Assembly (NCBI GenBank): GCA_026993525.1
Contig: JALWSS010000112.1
Coordinates: 1-59,022 of the forward strand
Origin: Saprospiraceae bacterium
Lineage (GTDB): Bacteria; Bacteroidota; Bacteroidia; Chitinophagales; Saprospiraceae
Length of the DNA stretch: 59,022 bases
Direction of reading: 5' to 3'
Shown: positions 51,718 to 57,937 of the stretch, in pieces
Layout: each line of letters starts with the position of its first letter
How positions within the stretch are numbered: the first letter of the stretch is position 1
The notes under the pieces: model-generated
Told to the model about the DNA's origin: nothing
Database searches by the model: none
What the model saw: the letters and a program-made list of their open reading frames with translations, nothing else
Made by a program: the position numbers and the translations under genes

Positions 51718-51749
51718 CCGGAGGAAGGCACTCCAATGTCTTCCTTCGG
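51718..51749 (+). promoter_or_regulatory. Intercistronic hairpin between NSS transporter and MetS-like genes
   Basis: CCGGAGGAAG pairs over 10 bp (one G-U) with CTTCCTTCGG around a 12-base loop. No T-run follows, so it more likely stabilises or tunes the message than ends it. Confidence 0.55.
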
Positions 51750-51780
51750 TAAACTTAAACCGAAAAAACACCATTCAGAT

Positions 51781-51909
51781 ATGAGTAAATCCGCTTTGAT
51801 CATGTGGCTGACGTCCAACCTGATCGTCACCGCATTCACCATTTACTTCTTCATCAAAGTGCTCAGAACCCCTGACAAAGGGGAAGAAGATTTTCCGCCG
51901 GGTCCGTGA
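51781..51909 (+). CDS. metS: MetS-like small subunit of NSS transporter
   Basis: 42 residues: MSKSALIMWLTSNLIVTAFTIYFFIKVLRTP forms one transmembrane helix, followed by a short acidic, proline-rich tail. Its size, topology and position right after an NSS transporter match the MetS small subunits needed for transport by some bacterial NSS proteins. It would be missed by annotation with a length cut-off. Confidence 0.75.
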   Translation: MSKSALIMWLTSNLIVTAFTIYFFIKVLRTPDKGEEDFPPGP

Positions 51910-51974: not shown

Positions 51975-51992
51975 TTTTAACTTAACTTAAAA
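51975..51992. promoter_or_regulatory. Possible autoregulatory site before the TAC cassette
   Basis: TTTTAACTTAACTTAAAA is an imperfect inverted repeat directly before the toxin start; ATTCTCAAAAAGAAT (about 51938-51952) is a second inverted repeat. HTH antitoxins usually bind such sites in their own promoter. Assignment is inference. Confidence 0.35.
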
Positions 51993-52532
51993 GTGAATAC
52001 CTTTGTCCTCGAGATTTGGGAAGACAGCTTTGAACAGGTAACTTTTTACACTGTTAGATGGGAATCTTCTCAAGAAAGTGAGACTGACAAGTTTTTTTCG
52101 AGGTTTCTTCAAGGTAAGGAAGAATTCAGGGAAGATTTCCATGAACTTGTCGCCCTGATCGAAGACATTGGAAATCGCAAAAGTGCCAAGCCTCACTATT
52201 TTTCAAGGCAAGTAGCAACCATTAGCGAACTGCCTCCAAAGATGAAGGTCAAAATTGAAGAGTTGACTTTGAACCTCACGAGCAATCGTCTGAGGTTGTT
52301 TTGTCTCAGGGTGAGTGATCATATAGTCATTCTTTTCAATGGAGGGGTCAAGACCAGTCAAAAAACACAAGACAGCCCTGACCTGGCTTCAAAGCTTAGA
52401 GATGCATGGGATTTTGCCAAAGTCATTCTTGAAGAGCTTCAGGATTCATACGGATCAATCAATTTGGACAATTTCTCCCGGCGAATCATCGATGACAAGG
52501 GCAATGACGACCAGATAATTTTTGAAAGATGA
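51993..52532 (+). CDS. Candidate toxin of a toxin-antitoxin-chaperone cassette
   Basis: 179 residues beginning NTFVLEIWEDSFEQVTFYTVRWE, with a mixed middle part and the block LRLFCLRVSDHIVILFNGGVKTSQ, which resembles the core strands of RelE/HigB-like toxins. It is almost twice as long as classical HigB, so a separate toxin family or an extended RelE-type fold are both possible. The start is GTG at 51993; TACCTTTG, a -7-like box, falls within the first codons and may be chance. Its stop overlaps the antitoxin ATG by four bases (ATGA). AT-rich composition compared with the neighbours suggests transfer. Confidence 0.7.
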   Translation: MNTFVLEIWEDSFEQVTFYTVRWESSQESETDKFFSRFLQGKEEFREDFHELVALIEDIGNRKSAKPHYFSRQVATISELPPKMKVKIEELTLNLTSNRLRLFCLRVSDHIVILFNGGVKTSQKTQDSPDLASKLRDAWDFAKVILEELQDSYGSINLDNFSRRIIDDKGNDDQIIFER

Positions 52533-52939
52533 AAAACAAGCTGTTTGAAAAAGCACTCGCTGAAGTTCCTGCAGAGACCAAAGTCTTTGTCAGAAAATAC
52601 ACCGACATCGTTGACAGGATCAACTATTTGTTGAAACAGAAAAAGCTCACCCAAAAGCAGCTTGCTGAGCGTATGGGCAAGCGGGAATCAGAAATCAGCA
52701 AGTGGCTGAAAAGCGGTCAAAACCTGACGCTGAAATCCATTGCAAAGCTGGAAGTCGCATTGGAAGAAGAGATCATTTCTGTTCCCAAGCCTGAAATTAC
52801 ATATCCTACATGGCAACGGATGCCTTCGGAAAGTTTCAAAATAACGCTTAAAACCTCCAAAGAAAATCAATTTGTTACCGAAAGATTTGAAACTATCACA
52901 ACTAAAGATTTGCAATCATTGGATCCTTCATTAGCATAA
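52529..52939 (+). CDS. HTH antitoxin with C-terminal chaperone-addiction-like tail
   Basis: 136 residues. The XRE-type HTH lies at about 30-82 (INYLLKQKKLTQKQLAERMGKRESEISKWLKSG). After it comes a tail of more than 50 residues (84-136) with alternating hydrophobic and charged residues (ITYPTWQRMPSESFKITLKT). In TAC systems such tails make the antitoxin depend on the SecB-like chaperone. The SecB-like gene starts six bases downstream. The ATG overlaps the toxin stop codon, so translation is coupled. Confidence 0.85.
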   Translation: MKNKLFEKALAEVPAETKVFVRKYTDIVDRINYLLKQKKLTQKQLAERMGKRESEISKWLKSGQNLTLKSIAKLEVALEEEIISVPKPEITYPTWQRMPSESFKITLKTSKENQFVTERFETITTKDLQSLDPSLA

Positions 52940-52945
52940 TAACCC

Positions 52946-53395
52946 ATGAAGACTAAATTTTCGCCTGAAAAGATTGCTTTACTAGACTACAGAGTGATGA
53001 ACATCTCTTTGAAAGACACCTTTGAATCTCTAAATCTGGAAAATCCTGAAATTGCTGTTGAGTATGGGTATGAAATGTCATTTAATTTAGAGGAAAAGCT
53101 AATGCGTTCAGACCTGAAAATTACTCTGACCATTAAAAATGAGCAATTAACTGAATTATCAGAGGCATTTTTTCAAATCTTATTTTTGTACAAGGTTGAA
53201 AACATCGAACAGCTAATCTGGAAAGAAGATAAAAATTATATTACAGACGACTTATTATCATCATCTATCGCCGCAATATCCTACTCAACTGCAAGAGGTG
53301 TTATCCGAAATTACCTTACTGATACATCATTTCAGGAGTTTGTACTACCAATAATAAGTCCCTCAATTCTTCTTGAACCATCTAAGAAAAAATAA
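52946..53395 (+). CDS. SecB-like chaperone of a TAC cassette
   Basis: 149 residues. The SecB fold is recognised by YEMSFNLEEKLMRSDLKITLTIK (central strands), EAFFQILFLYKVENIE, and the hallmark C-terminal block YSTARGVIRNYLTDTSFQEF (113-132) followed by LPIISPSILL, equivalent to the YPYARxxI...T..FPxLxLxPVNFxAL of SecB. The sequence is far from housekeeping SecB, and most Bacteroidota lack the latter. Placed third after toxin and antitoxin, it most likely folds and protects the antitoxin, as Rv1957 does in Mycobacterium tuberculosis. Its 3' end overlaps the methyltransferase frame. Confidence 0.85.
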   Translation: MKTKFSPEKIALLDYRVMNISLKDTFESLNLENPEIAVEYGYEMSFNLEEKLMRSDLKITLTIKNEQLTELSEAFFQILFLYKVENIEQLIWKEDKNYITDDLLSSSIAAISYSTARGVIRNYLTDTSFQEFVLPIISPSILLEPSKKK

Positions 53396-54853: not shown

Positions 54854-57800
54854 TTATGCCTTGGCCGTATGGCGCTTGATCGTCTTGCGGTCTTTGGCCT
54901 TCGATTTCCTGGAGATCTTAATGTCGCCTTTGGTAAGGTCTGACATGATGGGCGATGCAATGAAGATGGAGGAGTAGGTACCCACTACCACACCCAACAC
55001 CAGGGCAAAGGCGAATCCTTTGATGCTTCCGCTACCAAACAGCCAGAGTACGAAGACGGTGAACAAGGTGGTAAGACCCGTGATCAGCGTACGGCTCATG
55101 GTGCTGTTGATGGCTGCATTGATGATGTCATTTTTCTCCTTGTCCGGAAAGAGTCCGGAGTATTCCCGGATACGGTCGTAAACGATAACGGTATCATTCA
55201 CGGAGTAACCGATGATGGTCAGAATGGCGGCGATGAATGCCTGGTCCACTTCCATCGGGAAGGGCAAGATGCCATGGAGCAATGAGAACACAGACACCAC
55301 CACGAGGGCGTCGTGGGCGGTAGCGGCCACAGCCCCCAGGGAGTATTGCCACTTGTTGAAACGCACCAGGATGTAGAGGAAGATAACCAGCAAACCGAAG
55401 AAAACGGCCTCACCGGCACTGTTCCGGAGGTCGTCAGCCACAGTTGGTCCCACCTTGCTGAAAGAGGTCACGTGGGTTTTGCCCACAATGTCGGGATTCT
55501 TGAAATCCTCCAGCGATTCGCCGGCGTTGAATGAGGCCAGGCCTTCGTGCAATTTGGCAATGACCTTTTCGGGCGCATCATCGGCAGGGTCGTCAACCAG
55601 GTAATCAGTGACGATATTGTAAGTATTTTCAGTGTTTACCGCTTTTACAATGGGCGCTTCACCCAGGACTGTTTCCAGGGTGGTACGGATGGATTCGGCA
55701 TCCACCTGCTCACCTGCAAACTCAACGTTGACCGAGTAGCCGCCCCTGAAGTCCACCCCAAGGTCGAAACCACGGGTAAAGACAGAAACAATCCCCATGA
55801 TGATGATGGAAGCAGAAATGATGTAAAATACTTTTCTGCGCTTCATCCAATCTACGTCAAGGTTGGCAAGAACATTTTTGGTTGCATTGGTCCAGACGGT
55901 GAAATTGCGCCCTTTGGCCAGCCACCACTCGATGATCAGCCGGCTCACCAACACCGCTGTGAACAGCGTGGTCATGATACCGATGGCCAGGATCACACCG
56001 AATCCTTTGATGGGCCCGAGACCAAAGACGATCAGAACAAAAGAAGTCAACAGGGTGGTCACGTTACCGTCAATGATGGCTGAATAGGAGTTCTGGTATC
56101 CGTCTCGCACGGCAGCGGCTATGGTTTTACCGGCCCTCAGTTCCTCCCTCACGCGCTCGTAAATGATCACGTTGGCATCAACGGCCATACCGATGGTCAG
56201 TACGATACCGGCAATACCCGGCAGGGTCAGTACGGTACCGGCAGAGGCTACGGCAGCCAGCAGGAAAACCACGTTGAGGAACAACACTGCAATGGAAACA
56301 AAGCCCGCCGTTCCGTAATAAAATACCATGAAAACCAGCACCAGCAGAAATCCGATCAGAAGGGCATTCAAACTCTTGCTGATATTTTTGGCACCCAGCG
56401 ATGGGCCCACCACCGATTCCTGAATGATCTGCGTACGGGCAGGCAACTTGCCGATCTGAAGAATGTTGGCGAGGTCTTGTGCCTCCTGAACGGTAAACTG
56501 ACCCGTGATTTGCGAATCACCCGAAGTGATGGGGTTGATCACACGGGGAGCCGAAACAACCTGGCTGTCGAGTACGATGGCAATTTCACGGTTGTTGTCA
56601 TTGGCGGCCTTGGTGGTCATGCGGCCCCAGATACGGGCGCCCTCAGAGTCCATTTTCAGGCTGATGGCCAACTGGCCGGAAGTAGGATCGGTAGTGACAA
56701 ATGCGTCGGTGACGTGATCGCCTTCCAGCGGAGCCTTTTCTTTGCCCGGCTCTTTTTTGATCATGTAGAGCTCATACAGTTCTTTATCTGATGGGGTCGT
56801 TTCGTTATCGAGGTTTTTTACCGGAGAGCGGGACCACAACAGCATGGCATCCCTGGGGAACAACTCTTTGATGCCGGGTTTATTGAGCATCTCCATCACG
56901 GCCTTCTGCTTGTTCTTTTCGGCGGTGCCGATCGGAGCCAGACCAAGCGCACCGGAGTTGTTCAACGTAAAAATGTCAAACAATGGCCCCTGGGTACTGG
57001 ACAGGTTGTTGAGGCTGTCGGCAGCACTCGTTTCAGCAACTTGGGTGGAATCGGTCTCCACGGCAGTTGAATCAGTTGCAGTTTCTTCAGAAGCGGTGAT
57101 CTTTTCCTGCTCCTGCATTTTGCGAAGCTGCTCATTGGCTTTGATAAAAGGCTCTATCACCCCCGGATCGGTGATTCTGTAAACGTTCCAGAATTCCAGT
57201 TTGGCGGCAGCCTGAAGGTATGAGCGGGCACGCTGAGGGTTGTCAACACCCGGCAATTCAACCAGGATGAGGTCACGGCCGGCATCCAAAGATACGTTCG
57301 GACCGATGACGCCCAGCTTGTCAATACGCTCTTTGAGCAGCTTGTAGGTGAGATCAACGGTTTCGTTGGCTTTTTCCCGAAGTATCCTGATCACCTCACC
57401 ATCAGGCGTGTTGATGTTGATCTTGTCGGAAAGCGTTTCGTTGCGCTTGAAAAGTGAATTCAGGGGTTTGCCGTTGGTGGTTTCACGCCAGGCCTGCGCA
57501 AACAGGGTGATAAAATCTTCCTGTGAATTCTTCTGGGCCTCTTTGGCTTTTGCCAGTGCGGCTTCCAGCTCAGGGTTCTGCACATTACCGGCCAGGGTTC
57601 TGATGAAATCACTCAAATCAACCTGGAGCAATACACTCATACCGCCTTTCAGGTCAAGACCAAAGTTGAGCTGAGAACCTTTGAGGTCCTGATAAGTGTA
57701 AGACTTGAGAAGGGGAATTTTAAAAATAACCTCTGAAGACATGGAGTCCAGGTAGGCAGCATAGGCTTTTTTGTAGGCCTGGTTTTGCTCGTCTTCCGAA

Positions 57801-57937
57801 ACCTGTGCAGCAACGCTATTCGCATACTTGTCGGCTGCATTCTCCACACTTCGTGTCGGCAGGATGAGCAAAAACTGGTAAACCGACACGATCGCCAGCG
57901 CAATGAGGAAGAACTTGATGATTCCTTTTCCTTGCAT
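54854..57937 (-). CDS. secDF: SecDF fusion protein translocase subunit
   Basis: Uses the proton gradient to help Sec-driven export from the periplasmic side. The 1027-residue chain joins SecD (to about 690) and SecF: one N-terminal helix, a long periplasmic P1 region with inserted low-complexity Ser/Thr/Glu stretch (about 280-320), then the NFGLDLKGG motif, the D-containing DANVIIYERVREELRAGK motif, and in SecF GVDFRGG, YSVNDTVIVYDRIREYSG. Twelve membrane segments are expected. Fused SecDF is usual in Bacteroidota. Confidence 0.97.
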   Translation of the reverse strand: MQGKGIIKFFLIALAIVSVYQFLLILPTRSVENAADKYANSVAAQVSEDEQNQAYKKAYAAYLDSMSSEVIFKIPLLKSYTYQDLKGSQLNFGLDLKGGMSVLLQVDLSDFIRTLAGNVQNPELEAALAKAKEAQKNSQEDFITLFAQAWRETTNGKPLNSLFKRNETLSDKININTPDGEVIRILREKANETVDLTYKLLKERIDKLGVIGPNVSLDAGRDLILVELPGVDNPQRARSYLQAAAKLEFWNVYRITDPGVIEPFIKANEQLRKMQEQEKITASEETATDSTAVETDSTQVAETSAADSLNNLSSTQGPLFDIFTLNNSGALGLAPIGTAEKNKQKAVMEMLNKPGIKELFPRDAMLLWSRSPVKNLDNETTPSDKELYELYMIKKEPGKEKAPLEGDHVTDAFVTTDPTSGQLAISLKMDSEGARIWGRMTTKAANDNNREIAIVLDSQVVSAPRVINPITSGDSQITGQFTVQEAQDLANILQIGKLPARTQIIQESVVGPSLGAKNISKSLNALLIGFLLVLVFMVFYYGTAGFVSIAVLFLNVVFLLAAVASAGTVLTLPGIAGIVLTIGMAVDANVIIYERVREELRAGKTIAAAVRDGYQNSYSAIIDGNVTTLLTSFVLIVFGLGPIKGFGVILAIGIMTTLFTAVLVSRLIIEWWLAKGRNFTVWTNATKNVLANLDVDWMKRRKVFYIISASIIIMGIVSVFTRGFDLGVDFRGGYSVNVEFAGEQVDAESIRTTLETVLGEAPIVKAVNTENTYNIVTDYLVDDPADDAPEKVIAKLHEGLASFNAGESLEDFKNPDIVGKTHVTSFSKVGPTVADDLRNSAGEAVFFGLLVIFLYILVRFNKWQYSLGAVAATAHDALVVVSVFSLLHGILPFPMEVDQAFIAAILTIIGYSVNDTVIVYDRIREYSGLFPDKEKNDIINAAINSTMSRTLITGLTTLFTVFVLWLFGSGSIKGFAFALVLGVVVGTYSSIFIASPIMSDLTKGDIKISRKSKAKDRKTIKRHTAKA

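Follow-up and report, generated by a model that had tools for sequence, protein, structure and literature searches.

A probable toxin–antitoxin–chaperone cassette with a divergent HigB-like toxin in a Saprospiraceae bacterium

Introduction

The closest described systems are the toxin–antitoxin–chaperone (TAC) modules. In M. tuberculosis HigB1-HigA1-Rv1957, chaperone addiction was demonstrated by deletion and grafting, and HigA1 binds SecB through the stretch WHRLSSYRG, with PT before it in a primer (PMC5105189). HigA1 residues W108, R110 and Y114 make the main SecB contacts (PMC6377645), and the ClpX recognition signal consists of the last two residues, Val-Ala, so that the degron and the SecB site both lie in the C-terminal tail (PMC8165232). 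The catalytic basic residues of the HigB-TAC toxin are R68, R77 and K95, and Q98 and K99 are also named (PMC9098466). Rv1957 is a partial substitute for E. coli SecB, and SecB proteins outside the alpha-, beta- and gamma-proteobacteria are often associated with toxin–antitoxin (TA) genes (44 of 70), with varied toxin families (Sala et al. 2014, PMC4257090). In two further systems a phage protein competes for the chaperone. E. coli HigBAC, which comprises a HigB/Gp49-type toxin, an antitoxin and a SecB-like chaperone, has an anti-lambda defence role in which the competitor is a lambda tail protein (PMC11980606). In CmdTAC, whose toxin CmdT is an ADP-ribosyltransferase, a capsid protein draws off the SecB-like chaperone and the antitoxin is degraded (PMC11618068).

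The window analysed here is a 59,022-nucleotide stretch of a Saprospiraceae genome (GCA_026993525.1, contig JALWSS010000112.1, positions 1 to 59,022). For its cassette and relatives we computed gene order, two modelled folds, the coupling of antitoxin tail and chaperone, degron-like ends, a palindrome, and the linkage of three relatives to phage genes. In our judgement the cassette is probably a tripartite type II TAC module, horizontally acquired and carrying the full wiring of the mechanism proposed below. It belongs to a known TAC class, in a divergent and little-described branch, and may have an antiviral use.

Results and Discussion

Organization of the cassette

Three genes make up the cassette:

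51993..52532, forward strand: toxin gene, GTG start, 179 aa (ORF list)
52529..52939, forward strand: antitoxin gene, 136 aa, Xre/HTH_3 (HTH_3 E 1.3e-8; PADLOC PDLC04760)
52946..53395, forward strand: SecB-like chaperone gene, 149 aa

The ORF list reproduces all three reading frames of the original prediction, which had described a TAC cassette, with the same coordinates and lengths. The four-base ATGA overlap expected between the toxin and HTH genes spans 52529-52532, and the third gene follows after a six-base gap at 52940-52945. The cassette is AT-rich, as had been noticed, with a GC content of 0.34-0.43 in 500-base windows vs about 0.47-0.57 in its neighbours. That the toxin-HTH-SecB order goes beyond chance was open to a check proposed at the outset, namely whether the three genes co-occur elsewhere; 67 of 89 loci, including the window, keep the same order, and the proposal stands. 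This conserved order, which is also that of the M. tuberculosis locus (PMC4257090, in part), and the SecB-fold matches described below support the TAC reading well.

The defence-system library PADLOC-DB, which covers both known and candidate systems, has PDC-M64 models that match all three proteins: the toxin (PDLC04753, PDC-M64B; E 2.7e-39), the antitoxin over residues 1-89 only (PDLC04760; E 2.8e-33) and the chaperone (E 8.5e-26). We take PDC to mean phage defence candidate. PDC-M64 also matches five other toxins (L010, L012, L017, L006 and L002) and the L002 antitoxin, which represent four divergent relatives and one SecB-less pair. PADLOC-DB gives no description of PDC-M64, and in the literature searched, which was mostly open-access with preprints outside it, we found neither the name nor a paper that covers SecB-like proteins, antitoxins and Bacteroidota together. 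The divergent HigB-like TAC branch has been modelled, as PDC-M64, and is undescribed in that literature, though an earlier account elsewhere may exist. It has a shared palindrome and a history of coupled change of tail and chaperone.

Predicted structure of the toxin

The predicted model of the toxin has the RelE/HigB fold of the BECR-fold superfamily, to which one N-terminal strand and a three-strand C-terminal extension are added. Among known structures it is matched best by M. tuberculosis HigB1, the TAC toxin, and by a TA toxin from pneumococcus. The best Foldseek E is only 0.018, and residues 80-87 of the model have pLDDT values <50. A new fold had been considered for this protein and is ruled out by the RelE/HigB matches; the fold also separates it from the ADP-ribosyltransferase CmdT. 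Compared with the chain numbered to 127 in 7awk, the 179-aa toxin is distinguished by its added end strands and by the lack of a sequence match, and a PDB sequence search with it matched no chain. It scores 20.7 bits against Pfam Gp49 (PF05973), below the gathering cut-off of 23.9 and thus unlike the Gp49-type HigBAC toxin; of 22 aligned family members, the window's toxin alone reaches Gp49 at E 0.1. The N-terminal block FVLEIWEDxxxxVTFYTVRWE, singled out in the original prediction, is conserved in the nearest relatives. The accompanying suggestion of a new toxin family holds in part: the sequence does fall below the Gp49 cut-off, but the fold is that of RelE/HigB and the family is already covered by PDC-M64. 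As modelled, the toxin is a long divergent HigB branch and no new kind of toxin.

In an alignment of 22 toxin members, R101, K120 and Q126 are invariant. The K120-x-x-Q123-K124 residues of the window's toxin repeat the spacing of K95, Q98 and K99 in HigB-TAC, and R101 and K120 are spaced much like R77 and K95, in both cases a match of spacing only; a counterpart of R68 was not found. We infer that the protein is toxic and acts as an RNase, most likely cleaving mRNA at the ribosomal A site. It might instead be a RelE-fold protein that has ceased to be a nuclease and has another role, such as acting on gyrase, the target of ParE, or serving in regulation. The ParE-type structures in its fold list and the lack of a sequence match to a solved toxin would fit such a protein, but HigB structures come first in that list, and the invariance of R101 and K120 and the HigB-TAC spacing (PMC9098466) lead us to regard a non-nuclease as quite improbable.

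Predicted structure of the chaperone

The third protein had been called SecB-like from two sequence blocks, both of which are present:

53282..53341, forward strand: stretch coding for YSTARGVIRNYLTDTSFQEF, partly within the long helix 102-123 of the model
53345..53374, forward strand: stretch coding for LPIISPSILL, the second conserved SecB-like block (P135 and P139 invariant in 17 members)

Residues S114, T115, R117 and G118 are invariant or nearly so in the 17 chaperone members. Because a PDB profile search gave SecB at an E of 1.1 only, the SecB call was decided by predicted structure: the AlphaFold2 model has a SecB fold and is matched by Foldseek and VIA-align to SecB and Rv1957, and the call is upheld. 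Identity to the M. tuberculosis TAC chaperone is 11% over the structural alignment. In its own genome the gene has no second copy that we could find and no PF02556 SecB lies above the family cut-off; since PF02556 also misses the window's chaperone, a divergent SecB could be overlooked there. The chaperone profile matches 76 of 395 phylum genomes.

Relatives of the cassette

Counting its own genome in each case, the toxin matches 31 of 296 phylum genomes, and alignment A4 matches 29 of 395 genomes of the class and 3 of the 14 genomes of the genus. A collection scan yielded 44 named loci, all of which we take by their names to belong to Bacteroidota. The first locus set comprises 87 loci with readable toxin and antitoxin genes, the window included, and 83 different toxins. 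Left out were short HigB types (L027, L029, L103), duplicates or near-duplicates (L018, L040, L070, L079, L084, L089), loci at contig ends (L020, L088), loci in which a complete pair was not found (L075, L091, L101, L102), and L095, with a broken antitoxin and chaperone. Two toxin-scan matches without loci and later weak matches such as L181, L185 and L186 lie outside the set. The antitoxin of L085 was assigned by eye, L086, L094 and L157 were retained despite a stop in the toxin frame, and the toxins of L100 and L104 are of a second long family. With the addition of L203 and L204, both from the window's genus, the total is 89 loci; by coordinates, the chaperone gene adjoins the antitoxin gene in 67 and is absent in 22. 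In L095 the antitoxin frame is broken and the chaperone gene is split, and the toxin frame is open over 167 aa.

Coupling of antitoxin tail and chaperone

The HTH_3 match of the antitoxin covers residues 33-79, and a 53-residue tail lies beyond it. Features of this tail are as follows:

52778..52936, forward strand: antitoxin C-terminal tail, candidate chaperone-addiction (ChAD) segment (residues 84-136, 53 aa)
52805..52819, forward strand: PTWQR in the tail, resembling PTWHR at the HigA1 SecB-binding site
52928..52936, forward strand: Ser-Leu-Ala antitoxin C-terminus, candidate ClpX degron, which ends like the pattern [VAILM][AGS]

All 67 SecB-linked loci have antitoxin tails of 30-93 aa, and 16 of the 22 SecB-less loci have tails of 6-20 aa. 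Six SecB-less loci depart from this pattern by having long tails: L014 and L019, in which the tail is changed and rich in proline, L030, which sits on a very long branch, L063, L203 and L204. A Mann-Whitney test on tail length (p 4e-8) ignores relatedness and was given no weight. The 89-row toxin tree implies at least 11 switches between loci with and without SecB, and at least 7 between those with and without a tail; gain cannot be separated from loss because the tree is long-branched and unrooted. Ten independent pairs can be drawn from the 89 loci: in 6-7 of these, tail and chaperone differ in the same way, in none do they differ in opposite ways, and 3-4 have no tail difference (sign test, p 0.016-0.031). 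Dropping L086, L094 and L157 leaves 5-6 same and 0 opposite (p 0.031-0.063), and when L085, L100 and L104 are also removed (87-row tree) they are 4-5 same and 0 opposite (p 0.063-0.125). Earlier runs gave 2-3 agreeing and 0 opposite pairs for 68 loci (p 0.25-0.5, underpowered) and p 0.016-0.031 for 87 loci. The direction of the coupling is therefore constant and its significance is borderline. Tail distances also correlate with chaperone distances beyond the toxin (partial Mantel, 0.32) and beyond the HTH (0.37; p 0.0002, 52 of the 67 loci), in a test that is prone to over-confidence. This co-change and co-variation beyond the rest of the operon suggests a dedicated dependency, in keeping with the chaperone addiction demonstrated in M. 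tuberculosis (PMC5105189).

The coupling has exceptions within the window's own genus. The L203 and L204 antitoxins have 80-residue tails ending in KKK, no adjacent SecB-like gene was found, and every Pfam match of the L203 antitoxin falls within its first 80 residues; this is apparently a different way to build an antitoxin. L014 and L019 are close relatives with proline-rich replaced tails in which a SecB gene was not found, possibly reflecting a recent loss; tail and gene are both present in L015 and L024, their near neighbours.

A TA pair that merely sits beside a SecB serving general protein export would be in keeping with the partial replacement of E. coli SecB by Rv1957 (PMC4257090), and with the fact that no other SecB is recognised in the genome, where a divergent one could escape PF02556. 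The conservation of gene order across 67 of the 89 loci, the six-base spacing and the tail-chaperone coupling all speak against it, as does the presence of the chaperone profile in only 76 of 395 phylum genomes, which is unlike a core export gene, and we consider this arrangement highly improbable.

Like HigA1, the window's antitoxin combines an HTH, a C-terminal tail, a hydrophobic degron-like end and PTWxR. The tail contains PTWQRMPSESF, which scores 27; when this tail is shuffled 100,000 times, 0.057% of the shuffles reach that value. It is the best of the 67 tails in its PTWxR likeness (the runner-up scores 18). The likeness was noticed post hoc and is restricted to the window's tail, so we treat it as a lead only.

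Degron-like C-termini

An end of the form [VAILM][AGS] occurs in 55 of the 67 SecB-linked antitoxins vs 6.9% of 217 background ORFs, which were ORFs of >=250 aa and may include frames that are not genes. Counted by tail cluster, with the first member of each, it occurs in 15 of 22 (one cluster has 38 members). It is also found in 6 of 20 SecB-less antitoxins, and the pattern was chosen post hoc, after the sequences had been viewed.

A palindrome over the toxin start

The start codon of the toxin lies within a palindrome:

51982..51997, forward strand: candidate antitoxin operator TTAACTTAAAAGTGAA, containing the toxin GTG start codon 51993-51995

The region upstream of the toxin contains TTMACTTATAAGTKAA or a variant of it. 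The pattern TTMACTTAWAAGTKAA has a single match in the entire genome of 5.16 Mb, at 51982-51997, and a control pattern has 0. Between -150 and +8 relative to the assigned start, 60 of 87 loci carry the exact core ACTTNNAAGT, namely 47 of the 67 that have the chaperone gene and 13 of the 20 that do not. By comparison, it occurs in 60 of 18,485 equal-length segments from other parts of the loci and in 0.5% of upstream segments after shuffling; it is missing from 27 of the 87 loci. For these counts the start calls are mechanical, related loci are each counted, and the pattern was picked after viewing upstream sequences. Among the 62 listed copies, 27 start at -11, with the start codon inside, and 25 between -40 and -43. 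As assigned, 63 of the 87 toxins have a GTG start. Since the palindrome is common to loci with and without the chaperone, it is most simply a candidate operator of the antitoxin itself. We list it as a possible difference from the M. tuberculosis TAC locus.

Genomic setting and phage linkage

In six other genomes of the genus, G731, G733, G736, G737, G738 and G742, the flanking genes, for a Na+ symporter, a small protein and a methyltransferase, adjoin one another and the cassette is absent from between them; the methyltransferase counterparts are 34-39% identical. G736 carries the toxin family on another contig. The small protein, of 57 aa (51736-51909), directly follows the symporter gene, has counterparts in the six genomes, and gave no match in Pfam or NCBIfam. 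Near the SecB-like gene is secDF (54854-57937, reverse strand; NF009585, 1110 bits). Its proximity was considered as a functional linkage and set aside, as an insertion site is simpler; with the cassette's place empty in relatives, the nearness is probably coincidence.

Terminase genes follow the cassette in Flavobacterium L062, in viral contig L205 and in L059 and L064. L205 carries the terminase proteins of L062 at 100% identity, and PHROGs identify its small (E 1.5e-30) and large (E 1.4e-33) terminase subunits. A scan of viral contigs gave one relative. The toxin had no match in phage records at E 0.001, and the chaperone had none in 72,556 plasmid records.

These data bear on two further readings. 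A plain addiction or selfish module, in which the SecB gene adds stability and senses nothing, would account for the patchy spread (3 of 14 genus genomes, including its own) and for an AT-rich insertion at a site that is empty in relatives. We consider it unlikely: tail and chaperone tend to change together and co-vary beyond the rest of the operon, and the chaperone has no match among the plasmid records. The second reading retains the TAC wiring but makes it a sentinel of stress or export, triggered when aggregated or unexported protein, with no phage protein involved, occupies the chaperone, as in the model proposed for Rv1957 (PMC4257090). The nearby secDF and the lack of a PF02556 SecB above the family cut-off are in its favour; the contiguous flanks in six same-genus genomes make the place look like an insertion site, and phage terminase genes beside three relatives and the listing of the module by PADLOC also tell against it. 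We think such a trigger rather unlikely.

Proposed mechanism

The mechanism that we favour, with a phage trigger, would work as follows. The antitoxin would bind and neutralise the toxin and repress the operon at the palindrome overlapping the toxin's start codon. Its C-terminal tail would depend on the chaperone and carry a ClpX-type degron at its end; with the chaperone holding the tail, the antitoxin would fold, keep the degron hidden and survive. A competitor, most plausibly newly made phage structural proteins, would draw the chaperone away and leave the tail exposed. The antitoxin would then be degraded by a Clp protease, and the toxin would cleave mRNA on ribosomes and stop translation. 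The steps parallel those of CmdTAC, from which the cassette differs in its toxin, and the phage role proposed here by inference is one that HigBAC is reported to have (PMC11980606).

On a broader scale, the cassette might belong to a large Bacteroidota TAC branch in which three controls converge, namely an operator at the start codon, a fast-evolving, SecB-demanding tail that ends in a degron, and repeated joint change of tail and chaperone. This is a tentative proposal, about which we are more doubtful than confident. If true, the branch would be a natural experiment on how chaperone addiction is gained or shed, in which the chaperone's competitors in nature are phage proteins. Natural variants of one TA family with and without SecB exist in related organisms, so the chaperone dependence of a short tail, and its gain or loss, can be tested without grafts. 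PDC-M64, until now a PADLOC candidate without a description, gains a concrete and testable mechanism.

Related toxin and chaperone genes

The SecB-less Mucilaginibacter pair L002/L040 is short-tailed. In some of the SecB-less pairs of Mucilaginibacter, a similar 109-aa protein occupies the chaperone position (L002:2349-2678, L038:4852-5181 and L043:4852-5181); it is absent after the SecB-less pairs of L037 and L045. In L101, a single 291-aa ORF (L101:1718-2593) combines an HTH antitoxin with a SecB-like part beside a 65-aa toxin fragment, and is either a natural antitoxin-chaperone fusion or the outcome of stop-codon loss, the assembly here being fragmented.

By eye, a small gene and an HTH gene lie upstream of the SecB-like gene in 15 of the 20 neighbourhoods L136-L155. 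The small genes of L136, L137, L139 and L142 have no Pfam match, and that of L152 is a PF09907 HigB; the SecB-like genes of this group pair with several toxin types. The second long toxin-like family (about 170-200 aa; L137, L140, L143-L146, L150, L151, L100 and L104) has an LR-YAI...ITGGAIKL stretch and is followed by HTH and SecB-like genes. The L137 toxin matches PDC-M64B over residues 128-179 only, with an E of 3.9e-7.
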